From Candidatus Nitrospira kreftii (lineage in GTDB: Bacteria > Nitrospirota > Nitrospiria > Nitrospirales > Nitrospiraceae), in NCBI GenBank assembly GCA_014058405.1, contig CP047423.1, positions 868,001 through 932,000 on the forward strand: 64,000 nt of DNA, in the 5' to 3' direction. Below, one piece after another: positions 46,864 to 52,090 of this stretch; positions within the stretch are counted from its first letter, which is position 1; every line of letters begins with the position of its first letter. The notes below the pieces were generated by a model that made no database searches, was not told the DNA's origin, and saw only the letters and a list, made by a program, of their open reading frames with translations. The position numbers and the translations under genes are program-made.

Positions 46864-47148
46864 CTACACTTGTTTCATCCATTCCGTCTGACCGATCTTC
46901 TCCAATTCGATGTAAAGCGAGACCCAGGGGCATTTCATCTCGGGGTAGACTTCGCATAACCCCCCCCTGCGCACACCTCCACAAGGGCCGTGGGCCATGA
47001 ACTTCGGACACTCAGCTTTGAGTGAGTCGTCTGGAATCGGCGGACGCTTGTGAACTCCGCCGACATGGGTCCCAGTATCATCTTCACCCGCGATAAGAAC
47101 CCGTCGTGACATGAATTGCAGTGTAAACGGAATATGGTTGATCGGCAA
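46864..47148 (-). CDS. Methylene-THF reductase C-terminal-domain protein (MetV-like)
   Basis: About 82-94 residues. The second half has the cysteine-rich signature CPKFMAHGPCGGVRRGGLCEVYPEMKCPW, as in the C-terminal domain of split methylenetetrahydrofolate reductases (MetV of acetogens). It may pair with the short MetF at 38242, which lacks this part. The start is uncertain: TTG at 47148 or ATG at 47112 (MSRRVLIAGEDD). Confidence 0.75.
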   Translation of the reverse strand: MPINHIPFTLQFMSRRVLIAGEDDTGTHVGGVHKRPPIPDDSLKAECPKFMAHGPCGGVRRGGLCEVYPEMKCPWVSLYIELEKIGQTEWMKQV

Positions 47149-47580
47149 TCTCTAAACATGAATTGTCATGAAAGTTATGTTTATGAATGATTTGGGCAGT
47201 TACTTGAGAGGTGGTGGCTTTGTGTGTCGGTTGGGGCGAATGGCCTATTTCACGATTTTAATCTAGGCCTTCTTTCGGATACCTTGGGCCCTCTTTGAAG
47301 TTGCTTTGATTTTCCTGACGTTATACTATCTGTATAGATTTCGTTGGAAGTCTCCGCGCAAGGGGCCAAAGGAAACATGAGGCGACGGATGAGAGGAAAG
47401 ACGAAGCAAAGATTGACAGCCTTTTTTCGGCTTTGCTAGGATGCCCAATAGTCAATGATCAAGAGATAGTGGTTCGGTTGTTCAAACCCTCAAGTCTCCA
47501 CGTTTTCTTCGATGCAAGTTGGTGGTGTAAAGAATATAAGCAGCGGTCTGCCGTTGCCAACGATATAAGGGAGGTGCCTG
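47149..47580. other. Long leader region before the oxidoreductase operon
   Basis: A 432-base spacer with no gene. It is AT-richer than the surroundings and contains the promoter at 47413-47442, giving an untranslated leader of about 130 bases. No clear riboswitch fold was recognised. Confidence 0.6.
47413..47442 (+). promoter_or_regulatory. Candidate sigma-70 promoter of the oxidoreductase operon
   Basis: TTGACA (47413-47418), an 18-base spacer, then TAGGAT (47437-47442). It is the best box pair in the window. The -10 box resembles that of the aclB promoter. Confidence 0.65.
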
Positions 47581-48474
47581 ATGAGCCTTGATTATGTCAA
47601 GTTTTCCAATGGATTTGAGAAGTTCATGCCAAAGGAATACCGAGACATGGTGGAGCATGGACCGTTTGGAAAGAAGGTCACTGTTTCACAGATGGGGAGT
47701 TTCAAGGAAGTATTGGAAGAGCACCCCATGTGTGCTGGCTGTGCGATGACGCTCTTCATCCGACTCGCCATGGTTGCATTTCCAAATCCTGAAGACACAA
47801 TTACTGTTGGGACGGCTGGATGTGGACGTCTTGCCATCTCTCAGGCGGCGATCCCATTTGTCTACGGCAACTATGGTGATCAAAACGGAGTGGCCAGTGG
47901 ATTGTCCAGAGGCCTCCGTCTTCGTTTCGGCGATAAACCAAAAGATGTGGTTGTGATGGCCGGAGATGGCGGTACGGCGGATATCGGCTTTCAGCAGGTG
48001 CTCCATTCTTGGTTCCGCAAGGAACGATTTACGACCATCATGTTGGACAACGAGGTATATGGGAATACCGGCGGTCAGGAAAGCGGGATGACGAACAGGG
48101 GCGCCGTGTTAAAAATGGCCCCGCTCGGGAAGAAGTTCGAGAAGATGGATATGTTACAGATGGCCAAGGTTGCCGGTTGTGCCTATGTGGCAACCGTCGT
48201 GCCGAATAATCCACGTCGTGTCGAAAGTGTCATTAAGAAAGCCGTGTTGATCGCTCGTGAAGTGGGGTCAACCTATATTCAGGCGTACACCTCTTGCAAT
48301 ATCGAATATGCTATTCCGACCGACAAGGTCATGGAAGATGCGAAGACGGTCGAGAACGATCGATACCAGTTCACCGAGTATGTCAGCGAAGAGGCCAAGC
48401 AGTACCTTGCCGAGCGCTATGGCTATAAGGAGTTCCTTCCCAAGCCAGCTGCTGCGATTCCCAACAAGGCTTAA
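47581..48474 (+). CDS. porB: 2-oxoacid:ferredoxin oxidoreductase, beta (TPP) subunit
   Basis: A 297-residue subunit that binds thiamine diphosphate and an Fe-S cluster. The TPP motif GDGGTADIGFQQVLHSWFRK...NEVYGNTGGQ lies at ~129-170, and the Cys pairs in HPMCAGCAMTLF and TAGCGRLA are cluster ligands. First gene of a five-gene operon, with GGGAGG upstream. In the reverse TCA cycle it carboxylates acetyl-CoA or succinyl-CoA; pyruvate versus 2-oxoglutarate specificity cannot be set from sequence alone. Confidence 0.9.
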   Translation: MSLDYVKFSNGFEKFMPKEYRDMVEHGPFGKKVTVSQMGSFKEVLEEHPMCAGCAMTLFIRLAMVAFPNPEDTITVGTAGCGRLAISQAAIPFVYGNYGDQNGVASGLSRGLRLRFGDKPKDVVVMAGDGGTADIGFQQVLHSWFRKERFTTIMLDNEVYGNTGGQESGMTNRGAVLKMAPLGKKFEKMDMLQMAKVAGCAYVATVVPNNPRRVESVIKKAVLIAREVGSTYIQAYTSCNIEYAIPTDKVMEDAKTVENDRYQFTEYVSEEAKQYLAERYGYKEFLPKPAAAIPNKA

Positions 48475-48496
48475 GCGGCTGTAAGGAGATTTCACA

Positions 48497-49219
48497 ATGG
48501 CGAAACGCTTTAATATTCGAATGGCAGGTGTCGGCGGACAGGGCGTCGTGACCGGCTCTCATATCCTGAGCACGGCCGTCATCAACGCCGGTGGAGAAAG
48601 TACGATCGTACCGTTCTATGGATCTGAAAAACGGATGGCGCCGGTCGAAAGCTATGTTCGTGTGTCAGATGAGCCGATTTATGAGATTGGTGAAATCACG
48701 TTTCCGCACATTATCATCATTTTTCACCCACAGGTCATCACGCACGGCAAATCGTATACGATGCCGTTCTACTTCGGTCTGAAGGAAGACGGGGTTGCCT
48801 TGATCAACAATGACGGACCGATGAATCTCCACAGAGACCAGGCAGCTGAATTGGAAAAGCTTCGGGCAAAGCTCTATTATTTTCCAGCGACAAAGATCTC
48901 CCTGGAAGTGGCGAATATGGATCTTGCCACGAACATGGCGCTGATGGGCTGTATTGGCGCGATTACGGGACTCACGAGCATGGAGGGGTTGGACCAGGCC
49001 GTAAAGGACCGGTTCCTCGGTAAAGGCTTTGTGGTATCTGGCGGGACTGCCGCGCTCGATAGTGTCGTTGAACGGAAGTTTAAAAAGAAACAGGAGTTGA
49101 TCGAGAAAAACGTGGCTGTTATGCGGGCAGGATGGAACTACGCGGTTGACCATGGGTGGGCAGCACCCGATGTCAAACGCGCAGAAGAACCAGTGGCAAC
49201 GGCCACTGCGACTGTGTAG
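48497..49219 (+). CDS. porG: 2-oxoacid:ferredoxin oxidoreductase, gamma subunit
   Basis: A 240-residue gamma subunit with the characteristic FNIRMAGVGGQGVVTGSHILSTAVINAGG opening and the FYGSEKRMAPVESYVRVS block, which binds CoA in related enzymes. The C-terminal ~50 residues are extended and Ala/Thr-rich. It lies between the beta and ferredoxin-like subunits, 22 bases after beta. Confidence 0.9.
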   Translation: MAKRFNIRMAGVGGQGVVTGSHILSTAVINAGGESTIVPFYGSEKRMAPVESYVRVSDEPIYEIGEITFPHIIIIFHPQVITHGKSYTMPFYFGLKEDGVALINNDGPMNLHRDQAAELEKLRAKLYYFPATKISLEVANMDLATNMALMGCIGAITGLTSMEGLDQAVKDRFLGKGFVVSGGTAALDSVVERKFKKKQELIEKNVAVMRAGWNYAVDHGWAAPDVKRAEEPVATATATV

Positions 49220-49240
49220 GCGAGCCACAAAGGAGTCTTC

Positions 49241-49564
49241 ATGTACCTTGTAGCCGATATTAGCGTTGAAATCTGCGCAGCGAAGAGCTGCAAACTTTGT
49301 ACGCAGTATTGTCCGGAAGCTAACACCATCCTTTATAGCGAAGAGATGGGGAAGGATCAGGGATTCAAGTATGGCTCGGCCTATGTCGCAGTAGACCGCT
49401 GTAAAGGATGTGCGCAGTGTGTGTGGGTCTGTGACAACATGGCGAAGAACAATGCGATTAAGATGATCATGATCGATCAATTGCCGAAGGCGGCGTTAAC
49501 GGACAACATTACATACGGCGAAAAGAGCACGACGGCCGTTTTGGCCAGTCCGGTCGTCGGATAA
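49241..49564 (+). CDS. porD: 2-oxoacid:ferredoxin oxidoreductase, delta (ferredoxin-like) subunit
   Basis: A 107-residue 2[4Fe-4S] subunit. The first cluster motif is CAAKSCKLCTQYCPE (~12-26) and the second CKGCAQCVWVC (~54-64), with the crossed Cys-Pro as usual. It passes electrons from the TPP site to ferredoxin. AGGAG precedes the start. Confidence 0.9.
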   Translation: MYLVADISVEICAAKSCKLCTQYCPEANTILYSEEMGKDQGFKYGSAYVAVDRCKGCAQCVWVCDNMAKNNAIKMIMIDQLPKAALTDNITYGEKSTTAVLASPVVG

Positions 49565-49586
49565 GAGCGAGGAAAGGGGAAAGGGA

Positions 49587-50351
49587 GTGGCAACAACACA
49601 GGATACGAGAGAGCGCATCATTGTACCGGGGCCTGCGGGTTTCCATCCTCCATCAGCCGCGCAGTTAGGTGTGTCGCTGCCGGATCCTGGCCAGGGGTTG
49701 TTCTATGGATTACTCGAGCCGAACGAGGAAGTGGTTATTGAAGAGATGGCTCGTAAGATGCTGACGAGCCCGAACGCGACGCTCTTTCCCGGGCCGCTGT
49801 TACTATGGGCCTGGAACGATCATGCCGTGGAAAAAGCAAAGGCGACGCTGGAAATTGCCGCGCAGATTCCGGAAGTCATGATCATCCCGATGCCGGATTA
49901 TCGGCCCAAGTATCCAAAGATCGATCCTGAAGAAGTGATCAACCCTAACCATCCAAATCTGACGATCTGGGGCAATAAGATCGAAGCCTGCATCTTTATC
50001 GGTGTGCATTGCCATTATGCGAATCTCACCCTCAAGATGATTCGGGCGGGAACCAATTGCTGTACCATGGCGATCTGTGCTGAGCAGGGCCACGAAGACG
50101 CCATGCTCACGATCCGAGACTCCGATACACTGAAGATCAAGCGTGTCGCAGAGATTTTCAAGCGCGTCCGTGAGGAGATGGGGATCAAGTTACCGGAAAA
50201 CGGGGAAAACGTCCGCTTTACCGGCACGCAGTCAAAAGTGCATGGTGGCAAGACCCACACGAACCCGATGGCATTCGCTCCGACTCCAGGTGGTACGGGT
50301 AGTGCGGCGATGTTCGGTCATTCTGCCGAGCACATGAAGCGGGAAGGATAA
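49587..50351 (+). CDS. 2-oxoacid:ferredoxin oxidoreductase, fifth subunit
   Basis: A 254-residue protein with a GTG start and GGGAAAGGGAG upstream. It is not a standard alpha, beta, gamma or delta subunit. It has an N-terminal segment PGPAGFHPPSAAQLG, a globular middle (EVMIIPMPDYRPKYPKIDPEE, IFIGVHCHYANLTLKMIRAGTNCCTMAICAEQGHED), and a Gly/His-rich tail. Database names for relatives mention a carbon-monoxide-dehydrogenase beta-like family; the role here is inferred as the epsilon-type extra subunit of five-subunit enzymes. Confidence 0.78.
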   Translation: MATTQDTRERIIVPGPAGFHPPSAAQLGVSLPDPGQGLFYGLLEPNEEVVIEEMARKMLTSPNATLFPGPLLLWAWNDHAVEKAKATLEIAAQIPEVMIIPMPDYRPKYPKIDPEEVINPNHPNLTIWGNKIEACIFIGVHCHYANLTLKMIRAGTNCCTMAICAEQGHEDAMLTIRDSDTLKIKRVAEIFKRVREEMGIKLPENGENVRFTGTQSKVHGGKTHTNPMAFAPTPGGTGSAAMFGHSAEHMKREG

Positions 50352-50391
50352 GGCCGGGCGGCAACGCTCGAACTAGCCAAGAGGTGTAATC

Positions 50392-51726
50392 ATGAGCGAG
50401 ACCGAAGTCAAAACCAATCCACAAGGTGATCCGATTACCAGCGTCGCAGTACCTAAGGCAGATAGAAAAACAGATCCGCATGGCGAAGCCAAAAGACAGC
50501 GCGTCGTGACGCCAGAATATATGTTCCACGAGGCGCCGCGAACCAAAGAGTTCATCACGGGTAGCGAAGCCGCCAAGGAGGCGATCCGCCGCTCGAACGT
50601 GGATTTAGCCATCGCCTATCCGATCACCCCACAGAGCGAAACGATGCAGCTTGTCGGCGTGCTCTATGGTGAAGGTTATGTGAAAGAGTATTATCGTGGT
50701 GAAGAAGAAGTCGGCGTAATGGCGGCCATTGCCGGAGGCTCACGGGCAGGAGTTCGTTGTTACACTGCTACGGCGGGTCCCGGCACATTGCGTGGTCTCG
50801 AAGGCATTGCCTCCTGGCCAGGCCACCGTCTTCCAGTCGTGGCCATGTTTACCTGCCGCGTCGTTAACGCTCCGCTGGCCATACAACCGGACAACATCGA
50901 AGTCTCTTATCTGCTCAACTGCGGCATGATCGTATTCCACGCCGAGAACCAGCAGGACATGTTTGACTTTACGATGGCCGGTTTCACGATCAGCGAAAAG
51001 AATGATGTGACGTTGCCCGTCGGTGTCTGCTGTGACGGCTTCTTTGTGACGCATGCTCGTGGGTATGTGCGCATGCAAGATCGTGGCATCAAGCTTCCGC
51101 CGCGCGAAGCATGGCGTGGTGCCGTCCCTGTGCTCGATGCGGAGAATCCTCCTGCGCGTCTGTCACGCGACGCTCCGGTACAGAAGTCGAACTTTATGGC
51201 GTACAACATTCACGCCGTCTGGCAACAGGAAGTCTGGGCGGCCGTCGAACGGTCGCGTAAATACATCGATCGGTATATGGGTGGATTACTCACGGCGGAG
51301 AATGTCGATGACGCAGAAGTCATCATTATTGCTTCCGGCAGCGCTGCTGCGCAGTCCCGCGAAGCGGTTCGTCTCTGCAAGGAAAAAGGCATGAAAGTCG
51401 GACTGATCAAGGTCCGGTCCCTCCGTCCATTCCCGACGAAGGAACTCCGTCAGTTGTGCGGCAAGGCCAAGTTGATCGTTATTCCGGAATTCAATTATGT
51501 GGGCTGGTTGGCGAAGGAAGTAGCAACCGCTATCTATGGCTTCTCCAGCGCGAAAATCATCGGTGGTCCGCGTGTGTACGGTGGACAGTCGATGCCGGTC
51601 GAGTTGATCGTGGACGAAGTTGAGTCTGGTGTAAGCGGTAAGAAGTCTACCAACGTCGCGATGTCGCAAATTATGGGCGGAGTCGTCAATGCTGACGAAG
51701 TCGCCCACTTCATGCGCAGCATCTAA
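50392..51726 (+). CDS. porA: 2-oxoacid:ferredoxin oxidoreductase, alpha subunit
   Basis: A 444-residue alpha subunit. After a ~60-residue charged N-terminus it has the core EAAKEAIRRSNVDLAIAYPITPQSE (TPP-contact YPITP), GVMAAIAGGSRAGVRCYTATAGPG, and a C-terminal transketolase-like domain (AAQSREAVRLCKEKGMKVGLIKVRSLRPFP). It completes the five-gene set and is followed by a strong terminator. Confidence 0.92.
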   Translation: MSETEVKTNPQGDPITSVAVPKADRKTDPHGEAKRQRVVTPEYMFHEAPRTKEFITGSEAAKEAIRRSNVDLAIAYPITPQSETMQLVGVLYGEGYVKEYYRGEEEVGVMAAIAGGSRAGVRCYTATAGPGTLRGLEGIASWPGHRLPVVAMFTCRVVNAPLAIQPDNIEVSYLLNCGMIVFHAENQQDMFDFTMAGFTISEKNDVTLPVGVCCDGFFVTHARGYVRMQDRGIKLPPREAWRGAVPVLDAENPPARLSRDAPVQKSNFMAYNIHAVWQQEVWAAVERSRKYIDRYMGGLLTAENVDDAEVIIIASGSAAAQSREAVRLCKEKGMKVGLIKVRSLRPFPTKELRQLCGKAKLIVIPEFNYVGWLAKEVATAIYGFSSAKIIGGPRVYGGQSMPVELIVDEVESGVSGKKSTNVAMSQIMGGVVNADEVAHFMRSI

Positions 51727-51748
51727 ACAAAGTGTGTTGAGAAAGCAC

Positions 51749-51781
51749 AAAGGCCCGCTCGGCTTAGCCGGGCGGGCCTTT
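51749..51781 (+). terminator. Rho-independent terminator of the oxidoreductase operon
   Basis: AAAGGCCCGCTCGGC-TTA-GCCGGGCGGGCCTTT forms a 15-pair near-perfect stem with a 3-base loop, 22 bases after the alpha-subunit stop, followed by GAATTTTT. It is flanked by A and T runs, so it could also serve the convergent gene on the minus strand. Confidence 0.92.
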
Positions 51782-51803
51782 GAATTTTTAGAACAGGTAG
51801 CCG

Positions 51804-52052
51804 TCAACCCTGGATCTCGTCCTCGATCATTTCCTCGCTGTTCGGCATCCCATAGGCCACGTACTTCGCATAGGATAGGTAGATCGATGCGCTGTCGGTC
51901 ATGGCTTTGGAGCCAGCGGTCAGTCGGACGACTTTGTCTGAGCCGGGCGGCTCCACGTTCTGCAACATGGTGACATGGTCGTGCAGCAGTGTGATGTAGC
52001 GTTCAACAGCCGATTCGACCTCTTTATAGGCTTTCAAAATGTCATCCGTCAT
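51804..52052 (-). CDS. Small hypothetical protein
   Basis: An 82-residue acidic helical protein (MTDDILKAYKEVESAVERYI...) started at 52052, with GGAGGAC upstream; the longer in-frame start lies in the divergent gene's promoter. No domain is recognised. It is convergent with the oxidoreductase operon. Confidence 0.65.
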   Translation of the reverse strand: MTDDILKAYKEVESAVERYITLLHDHVTMLQNVEPPGSDKVVRLTAGSKAMTDSASIYLSYAKYVAYGMPNSEEMIEDEIQG

Positions 52053-52090
52053 GGTTGTCCTCCGTATTGGGCTCAGCATACACTACGCAG

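Follow-up and report, generated by a model that had tools for sequence, protein, structure and literature searches.

Five-subunit 2-oxoacid oxidoreductases are already known from Nitrospira, Hydrogenobacter, and Aquifex. In Hydrogenobacter thermophilus and Aquifex aeolicus, which use the reverse TCA (rTCA) cycle, the POR and OGOR enzymes (por, for) likewise have alpha, beta, gamma, two-cluster ferredoxin-like, and CODH/ACS-epsilon-like subunits encoded in one cluster (PMC10052474), and five-subunit enzymes have been described in Nitrospira (PMC8115632, PMC10579370). The fifth subunit was identified in active A. aeolicus complexes (PMC10052474) and, as cited in PMC3578206, was required for expression of the H. 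thermophilus holoenzyme in E. coli and contains no known prosthetic-group motif. Its relation to CODH epsilon has already been published (PMC2607301, PMC10052474).

In the window, the whole 64,000-nucleotide stretch of Candidatus Nitrospira kreftii DNA analysed here, all five genes of such an enzyme, as claimed in the original prediction, were found as open-reading frames on the forward strand with Pfam support (Table 1). Separate genes for alpha (POR_N, PFOR_II), beta (TPP_C), and gamma (POR) lie in one predicted operon that also contains the PF02552 fifth-subunit gene, with intergenic gaps of 22, 21, 22, and 40 nt in the order beta, gamma, ferredoxin-like, fifth, and alpha. This order was kept in 68 of the 69 loci with all five genes among the best 80 of 427 loci, all close relatives, and the fifth subunit is 87–99% identical across the same 80. 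The profiles, the conserved order, and the published descriptions of Nitrospira enzymes (PMC8115632, PMC10579370) bear out the assignment to the five-subunit oxidoreductases of an rTCA bacterium. Our preferred reading, which we consider probable, is that the operon encodes a ferredoxin-dependent rTCA 2-oxoacid oxidoreductase, likelier an OGOR, in which the TPP core would consist of alpha, beta, and gamma, with electrons entering through the ferredoxin-like subunit. The fifth subunit, of the CODH/ACS epsilon family and most likely holding a metal, probably zinc, would be required for assembling or supporting the complex and would not serve a CODH, with a downstream-encoded two-helix protein as a possible sixth partner.

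Table 1 Features of the oxidoreductase operon and its flanks (window positions)
Feature	Position	Strand	Evidence
Promoter-like site TTGACA-18-TAGGAT, extended -10 (TG)	47413..47442	+	Promoter scan and conservation
Beta subunit, TPP-binding	47581..48474	+	PF02775 (TPP_enzyme_C) E 4.9e-18
Gamma subunit	48497..49219	+	PF01558 (POR) E 4.5e-34; TIGR02175 above its cut-off
Ferredoxin-like subunit	49241..49564	+	Eight Cys; Fer4 / PorD_KorD matches below cut-offs
Fifth subunit, CODH/ACS epsilon family, GTG start, 254 aa	49587..50351	+	PF02552 E 6.3e-36
Alpha subunit	50392..51726	+	POR_N PF01855 E 8.8e-53; PFOR_II PF17147 E 3.9e-19
Intrinsic terminator-like hairpin, 16 pairs, T tail	51748..51782	+	Hairpin scan
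Convergent 91-aa gene, helical-hairpin small protein, candidate sixth partner	51804..52079	-	
Divergent 94-aa DUF5981 gene	46864..47148	-	PF12225 E 1.7e-12

The beta subunit carries GDGGTADIG at residue 128, and its Cys 51, 54, 81, and 239 likely hold a 4Fe-4S cluster. Against the PDB, beta matched the beta chains of PFOR and oxalate oxidoreductase (E about 8e-19), and the chain closest to alpha was PFOR alpha (9bt4_B, E 1.8e-39). The ferredoxin-like subunit has two 4Fe-4S motif groups (Cys 12, 17, 20, 24, 54, 57, 60, and 64), the first with the spacing C-x4-C-x2-C-x3-CP.

The operon had been predicted to lie between a strong promoter and a terminator. The promoter-like site is unconvincing alone, since the scan found 10 sites versus 4.2 ± 1.9 in shuffles, but an equal-scoring site ranks best in 65/65 related upstream regions versus 1/65 shuffled (67 loci had a strong beta match, 65 of them with 300 nt upstream; being related, these regions are not independent), and this conservation gives the site better support. 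Downstream of alpha, a T-tailed stem of 16 pairs could serve as the terminator, and in 74 of 76 related loci the alpha gene precedes a terminator-like hairpin, a raw count with no shuffled comparison. The DUF5981 (PF12225) gene, which we take to be MetV-like, is a conserved neighbour of the operon, divergent and less than 1 kb from beta in all 60 related loci with room for it.

A search of the genome for a second paralogous operon found one at 3626.6-3630.9 kb. On annotation-level evidence, the window enzyme is likelier to be the 2-oxoglutarate than the pyruvate enzyme, and the sister operon is likelier to encode the pyruvate enzyme. Peptides of the N. marina POR alpha subunit given in PMC8115632 agree with the sister alpha at 11/12, 8/12, and 6/11 positions, versus 7/12, 5/12, and 4/11 for the window alpha. 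At three loci (L145, L154, and L158) the window-type set precedes the sister-type set, like the order for then por given for the Leptospirillum locus in PMC2607301. The gene order of the sister operon resembles that reported for the A. aeolicus OGOR, fifth-alpha-beta-gamma-Fd (PMC10052474), so that gene order alone would suggest the opposite substrate assignment.

The fifth subunit had been called an orphan with no standard domain name. This is incorrect, as it matches PF02552 (CO_dh, CODH/ACS epsilon) with 124.1 bits against a curated cut-off of 21, and CODH epsilon chains are the top Foldseek matches of its predicted model (pLDDT 81 overall, about 75 at residues 141-150 and about 50–58 at residues 101-120). 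Only four Foldseek matches had E ≤ 0.001, all of them CODH epsilon chains (top 9c0s_C, E 6.3e-5). VIA-align also placed one first (9c0r_C, Z 10.3, with 140 residues aligned at rmsd 3.6); formylmethanofuran dehydrogenase chains tied with it (5t5i_J, Z 10.2), and TPP enzymes were not far behind (Z 9.6). The predicted model thus has the CODH epsilon fold, by a small margin. A PDB sequence search with the family profile gave no match, and an NCBIfam search gave nothing for the fifth-subunit relatives or the small protein. The CdhC (PF03598) and Prismane (PF03063) profiles had no match in this genome, and both matched in the control methanogens M. jannaschii and M. acetivorans. A remnant CODH/ACS was therefore rejected and, as no CODH was found in the genome, the fifth subunit would not be serving one. 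The phylum search also gave six weak matches to PF02552 (G002, G012, G030, G235, G078, and G086), which were rejected as fifth subunits and excluded from the genome counts; judged by eye, three (L213, L215, and L218) start like what we presume to be acetolactate-synthase-type TPP enzymes and two (L214 and L216) are proteins of another kind that lack the Cys/His set, and the sixth, L217, was also dropped.

Archaeal CODH epsilon has been suggested to act in electron transfer or ferredoxin docking, and the weaker matches of the model in Foldseek and VIA-align, TPP-enzyme middle domains and sirtuins, are flavin or nucleotide binders. The predicted fold would thus suit a flavin- or nucleotide-binding subunit for electron transfer or ferredoxin docking, a role that we consider doubtful given that the complex already contains a ferredoxin-like subunit and that the invariant columns of the fifth subunit include Cys, His, Asp, and Arg, with no dinucleotide motif visible by eye.

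The Cys/His-rich stretch that had been noted in the fifth subunit is present, with C135, H141, C142, H143, C158, C159, C164, and H169 at residues 135-169. Among 127 different relatives (after collapsing identical sequences, in three groups set by nearest query and not by operon), H122, H141, C142, H143, C158, and C164 are invariant and C135 is present in 125, an invariance that is new as far as the open-licence papers searched reach. Judged by secondary structure, these residues would lie at the ligand edge of a Rossmann-like sheet. Such conservation suggests that the fifth subunit most likely holds a metal, which is probably zinc when the gene cluster described below is also considered; the residues could instead bind iron-sulphur or act in catalysis.

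Four related genomes have a zinc-starvation-type cluster that contains a paralogue of the fifth subunit of the sister operon together with ZIP, dihydroorotase-like, ALAD, and S18 genes and, at two loci, also S14 and CobW; gene sets of such a kind have been described for Zur regulons (PMC2770081). This placement, new within the reach of the same literature, indicates that the fifth-subunit family is probably zinc-linked. The cluster S18 is without the cysteine motif in all three readable copies and four ordinary S18 copies keep it, in a comparison that excludes the third S18 copy of G105 (L208). The four paralogues group as a single clade (100/100) nested among the sister-operon subunits, in a tree whose bootstrap is not quite settled and which omits one gene copy with a long X run that is included in the Cys/His comparison. 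All Cys/His residues are retained in these paralogues, indicating that they are not zinc-free stand-ins and weakening the idea that the zinc paralogue lost its ligands. A palindrome search for a Zur box at the zinc clusters found no clear regulator box, which, like the retained residues, counts against the preferred reading. The zinc-type cluster and six Cys/His that stay invariant across 127 relatives from several contexts also argue against a purely structural assembly factor with Cys/His conserved for folding only; such a factor would account for the need for the fifth subunit in E. coli (cited in PMC3578206), and we regard it as a possible but unlikely alternative to a metal-holding subunit.

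Among the fetched phylum loci, 18 of 96 fifth-subunit family genes lie beside DabA or DabB, an adjacency not met before in the open-licence papers searched. Together with the zinc-type cluster, the invariant Cys/His/Asp/Arg, and the fixation of CO2 by anabolic oxidoreductases, this could point to a zinc-dependent CO2/bicarbonate module that supplies, hydrates, or dehydrates CO2 beside the carboxylating active site. We find this role improbable, as the DAB-linked copies, all from one Nitrospirota family, nest among oxidoreductase fifth subunits in the tree (two with porD-type genes, 100/99) and may thus be relocated enzyme subunits, which also weakens the case for them as pump parts of their own. 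In addition, no carbonic anhydrase appeared among the Foldseek and VIA-align matches listed, and the DabA of this genome lies far from the window operon, at genome position 3886 kb. A complex-I-like arm lies next to a decayed oxidoreductase, a gamma/alpha-II fusion accompanied by two fifth-subunit relatives, in this genome as well, and this arrangement is likewise new as far as those papers reach; some relatives occur in clusters with no recognised TPP core. A wider proposal, to which we give little weight, takes the fifth subunit to be, instead of an oxygen shield, a zinc-dependent module for handling CO2/bicarbonate on a CODH-epsilon fold, common to carboxylating oxidoreductases, DabAB-linked loci, and an undescribed membrane complex made of the decayed oxidoreductase and a complex-I-like proton arm, with the oxidoreductases carrying a small two-helix sixth subunit.

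Oxygen tolerance, which the original prediction had associated with the fifth subunit, is not readable from sequence and is not established for the window enzyme, and the literature conflicts. Nitrospira is aerobic, the five-subunit form is the one employed by H. thermophilus in air (cited in PMC8115632 and PMC10066037), and an oxic-water Sulfurimonas has it too (PMC10066037), all of which would suit a shield over the iron-sulphur clusters or TPP radical that makes the enzyme usable in air. On the other side, exposure to air cost the A. aeolicus OGOR 95% of its activity and the PFOR its entire activity, which reductants restored in part (PMC10052474), the OGOR of aerobic Nitrospina gracilis does without the fifth subunit, for which the authors propose that the POR subunit may stand in (PMC3578206), and relatives of the fifth subunit also occur in clusters without a recognised TPP core. 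We therefore view an oxygen shield as unlikely, though not far-fetched, and retain the metal-holding assembly or support subunit as the preferred reading.

The small convergent gene lies outside the operon transcript because of its orientation. Of 73 window-type operons in loci from Nitrospira, 72 have it as a neighbour, and a relative (profile-profile probability 97.9) is beside 15 of 16 sister-type operons, three of these 15 scoring only 20-22 bits; the search reached 700 nt from window-type operons and 2 kb from sister-type ones, and 4 of 83 window-type and 1 of 17 sister-type operons were excluded for want of downstream room. In drawn genomes of other families, a recount found it beside 0 of 6 window-type operons, which weakens it as a neighbour outside Nitrospira, and none was displayed beside 8 further window-type operons. 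Of the 106 genomes that hold the fifth subunit, 103 also encode a member of the small-protein family, in a phylum search that is partly circular for G010, G082, and G098, since their three weak small genes are rows of the search alignment A3. The sister-operon paralogue of the small protein has a two-helix predicted model, and the best match in a PDB fold search with the small protein had E 0.36. These associations suggest that the small protein is a possible sixth partner of the complex; its family was not found described in open-licence papers, in searches not aimed at this nameless protein. A sixth protein, if real, would alter enzyme reconstitution for synthetic CO2 fixation.

Published work leaves the role of the fifth subunit open: the presence of two copies in the gene clusters is ‘intriguing’ according to PMC10052474, and PMC2607301 asks that the displaced forD genes be analysed further. 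The zinc link, the invariant Cys/His, and the DabA/DabB and complex-I-like relatives make this question testable. Compared with methanogen CODH/ACS epsilon (9c0r_C, 3cf4_G, and 1ytl_A), the fifth subunit shares PF02552 and the predicted fold (Z 9.6–10.3 over 131–140 residues) but only 10–15% identity, and this genome has no CODH/ACS match. In Leptospirillum ferriphilum, forD1, forD2, and porD are likewise PF02552 delta subunits, but forD lies away from its operon (PMC2607301), unlike the in-operon fifth gene of the window; at loci of family f19, which we infer to be the Leptospirillum family, fifth-subunit-type genes lie beside DabB and DabA. The window operon differs from those of H. thermophilus and A. 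aeolicus in its gene order, beta-gamma-Fd-fifth-alpha. This order is shared with N. defluvii (L097) and N. moscoviensis (L107), as are the queF, metV, small-gene, and rsm22 neighbours, and the five-subunit OGOR/POR of N. marina is alike by its published description (PMC8115632). Nothing essential separates the window operon from these Nitrospira OGOR/POR operons, of which it is one more copy.

The five + strand open-reading frames of the window operon (47581-51726) are separated from their neighbours by gaps of 21-40 nt, in a genome that forms a single contig of 4.13 Mb, the window being its bases 868001-932000. The original prediction had rightly seen a five-gene 2-oxoacid oxidoreductase operon, as the five frames, their profile matches, and their conserved order attest, and the operon is an enzyme of known kind. 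Among the best 80 of 427 loci, the five-gene order is conserved in 68 of the 69 with all five genes, and the closest fifth-subunit records, from Nitrospira MAGs, N. defluvii, and N. moscoviensis, are 87-99% identical, which marks the organism as Nitrospira-like. A promoter-like site of the TTGACA-18-TAxxxT type lies upstream, and an equal-score site was the top one in 65/65 related upstream regions versus 1/65 shuffled; 74 of 76 loci have a terminator-like hairpin behind alpha, a count made without a shuffled control. In the ferredoxin-like subunit, the first cluster motif is spaced C-x4-C-x2-C-x3-CP, with C-x5-C in the sister operon, a second, paralogous five-subunit operon of this genome; relative to the usual C-x2-C, we take the motif to carry extra residues past its first cysteine. 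The DUF5981 gene and the operon diverge in 60/60 related loci with room, and the genome holds two further 2-oxoacid oxidoreductases.

Features of the operon, its surroundings, and related clusters
Feature	Location	Strand or orientation	Content
beta		+	TPP_enzyme_C
gamma		+	POR
ferredoxin-like protein	49241-49564	+	eight cysteines
fifth subunit		+	254 residues, GTG start, Pfam CO_dh
alpha		+	POR_N and PFOR_II
small gene	51804-52079	convergent	91 residues; diverged paralogue behind sister operon
DUF5981 gene	46864-47148	-, divergent	stand-alone, 94 residues (methylene-tetrahydrofolate reductase C-terminal)
third cluster	genome C1 about 138.5-149.5 kb (L008:6508-17536)		fifth-subunit relative with NuoL-, NuoH-, NuoB-type genes
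further oxidoreductase	genome C1:157626-160730 (L009)		POR-domain frame, then alpha gene and beta gene
further oxidoreductase	genome C1:165180-168780 (L009)		1197-residue protein with POR domain, single-chain PFOR-like
zinc-starvation-type cluster	L168:3515-9986

Gene order and peptide matches favour 2-oxoglutarate as the putative substrate of the window enzyme. In three loci (L145, L154, and L158), a window-type alpha-beta-gamma-ferredoxin set is followed by a sister-type set and a fifth subunit, which is the published order of the Leptospirillum for and por genes, and the sister alpha matches three excerpted N. marina POR-alpha peptides at 11/12, 8/12, and 6/11, compared to 7/12, 5/12, and 4/11 for the window alpha. 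Against 2-oxoglutarate, the genes of the A. aeolicus OGOR are arranged as in the sister operon, according to an excerpt of PMC10052474.

The fifth subunit, originally described as an orphan without a domain name, belongs to an existing family, the epsilon subunit of archaeal CODH/ACS (Pfam CO_dh, 124 bits against a cut-off of 21). A sequence search of the PDB with the family profile found no chain. A model built from a 39-row alignment (pLDDT 81) gave four Foldseek matches at E ≤ 0.001, every one a CODH epsilon (best 6.3e-5). In VIA-align, the margin of CODH epsilon (9c0r_C, Z 10.3, rmsd 3.6 over 140 residues; 1ytl_A, Z 9.7; 3cf4_G, Z 9.6) is small because formylmethanofuran dehydrogenase chains tie with it (5t5i_J, Z 10.2), followed by TPP enzymes at Z 9.6 or below and by sirtuins at about 9. 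CdhC and Prismane searches of the genome returned zero matches; therefore, the fifth subunit serves no known CODH here.

Conservation was read from 127 different relatives, which divide by their closest copy in this genome into 94 (window copy), 25 (sister copy), and 8 (third copy). Six residues never vary among them (H122, H141, C142, H143, C158, and C164); C135 occurs in 125 relatives and H169 in 119, with Asp replacing H169 in the eight that are closest to the third copy. In a later set, position 135 is Ala in all three full-length examples shown of the extra copy that lies upstream of third-type clusters, and a broken copy in L164 has HCP. The model places C135 within one strand, H141-H143 next, at the start of the following helix (pLDDT about 75 for residues 141-150), and C158 and C164 on either side of the neighbouring strand. 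Rossmann-like sheets bind ligands at the edge where these conserved residues sit in the model.

In four genomes (L168, L170, L172, and L180), an extra fifth-subunit copy is clustered with a ZIP transporter, a dihydroorotase-like protein, ALAD, and S18, joined in L172 and L180 by S14 and CobW GTPases; names rest on Pfam for L168 and L172 and on similarity for the others, with the S18 of L170 identified in its genome by separate search. The S18 cysteine motif is absent from the three readable cluster copies (one is cut by its contig and a further copy, L208, was unread) and kept by four ordinary copies. Zur regulons with COG0523 genes and paralogues of PyrC, HemB, and carbonic anhydrase are described in an excerpt of PMC2770081. 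The four fifth subunits form a single clade within the sister-type subunits (100/100, bootstrap not quite settled), indicating one event in related genomes, and they retain all Cys/His residues, so that they count as spares and not as zinc-free substitutes. A search for a regulator box at these clusters found none. We infer that the fifth subunit may need zinc.

Other contexts were surveyed by classifying 96 family genes in 80 loci from the phylum search, a choice that favoured multi-copy genomes, so that the counts are not frequencies: 44 lie by oxidoreductase genes, 21 in third-type clusters, 18 by DabA or DabB, 5 alone by a ~160-residue protein, and 4 in zinc-type clusters, with 4 unclassified. 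The solitary genes, each followed by the uncharacterised ~160-residue protein, are in L144, L148, L155, L156, and L159 (family f19). DabB and/or DabA (inorganic-carbon pump), often with P-II, adjoin fifth-subunit genes in L130, L132, L146, L147, L149-L152, L157, and L160-L162; Pfam confirms DabA, a DabB-like membrane protein, and P-II in L132 and L130. These copies occur in one Nitrospirota family only, f19, in 11 genomes and two arrangements, and, since they group in the tree with oxidoreductase fifth subunits, may be enzyme subunits relocated near the pump. One genome (G019) has four fifth-subunit genes apart from its three alpha genes, and L. ferriphilum forD lies at 'strikingly different' loci (PMC2607301, excerpt). 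In the third cluster, a 500-residue protein matches PFOR_II, weakly gamma-type parts, and, in NCBIfam, an oxidoreductase alpha subfamily; no TPP domain was recognised in this fusion. The membrane arm is complex-I/Hyf-like, with a NuoB-type subunit, and such clusters recur in several Nitrospira-family genomes (L164, L166, L177, L181, and L183) and partly in L133 (f19).

A whole-genome search with the sister-operon paralogue of the small gene found itself and exactly the window gene (E 0.16), nothing else, and profile-profile comparison of window-type and sister-type small genes gave probability 97.9 and E 4e-13. The family lies within 700 nt of 72/73 window-type operons in Nitrospira loci and of 0/6 in drawn genomes of other families; 8 further window-type operons had no member displayed alongside. 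It lies within 2 kb of 15/16 sister-type operons in several families, three at just 20-22 bits. Among 245 genomes drawn from the phylum, the small family was found in 107 and PF02552 in 112, or 106 after six weak matches were dropped. It is present in 103/106 fifth-subunit genomes versus 4/139 others (three incomplete genomes, one at E 8.9e-4), a figure that overstates the independent evidence, as the genomes are related. All 15 genomes listed of the sister family f2 have two copies, and a second copy lies about 380 kb (G137) and 464 kb (G177) from the window-type operon. The sister-operon paralogue is modelled as two long helices, and no Pfam family, NCBIfam family, or convincing PDB fold was found for the small protein. 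In an excerpt of PMC10052474, the 15-kDa Aq_1163 adjoins and was captured with A. aeolicus OGOR.

The relation of the fifth subunit to CODH/ACS is already in print (excerpts of PMC2607301 and PMC10052474); the new leads are the residues that never vary, the small protein, and three gene contexts: the zinc-type cluster, the neighbourhood of the DAB genes, and the third cluster. As for its role, an oxygen shield would agree with excerpts calling the five-subunit form presumably oxygen-tolerant (PMC10579370) or O2-tolerant (PMC8115632), but air cost the A. aeolicus enzymes 95-100% of activity (PMC10052474, excerpt), and excerpts of PMC3578206 describe a Nitrospina OGOR without the subunit and cite heterologous expression that required it. 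An assembly or metal role therefore fits the published facts better than an oxygen shield.
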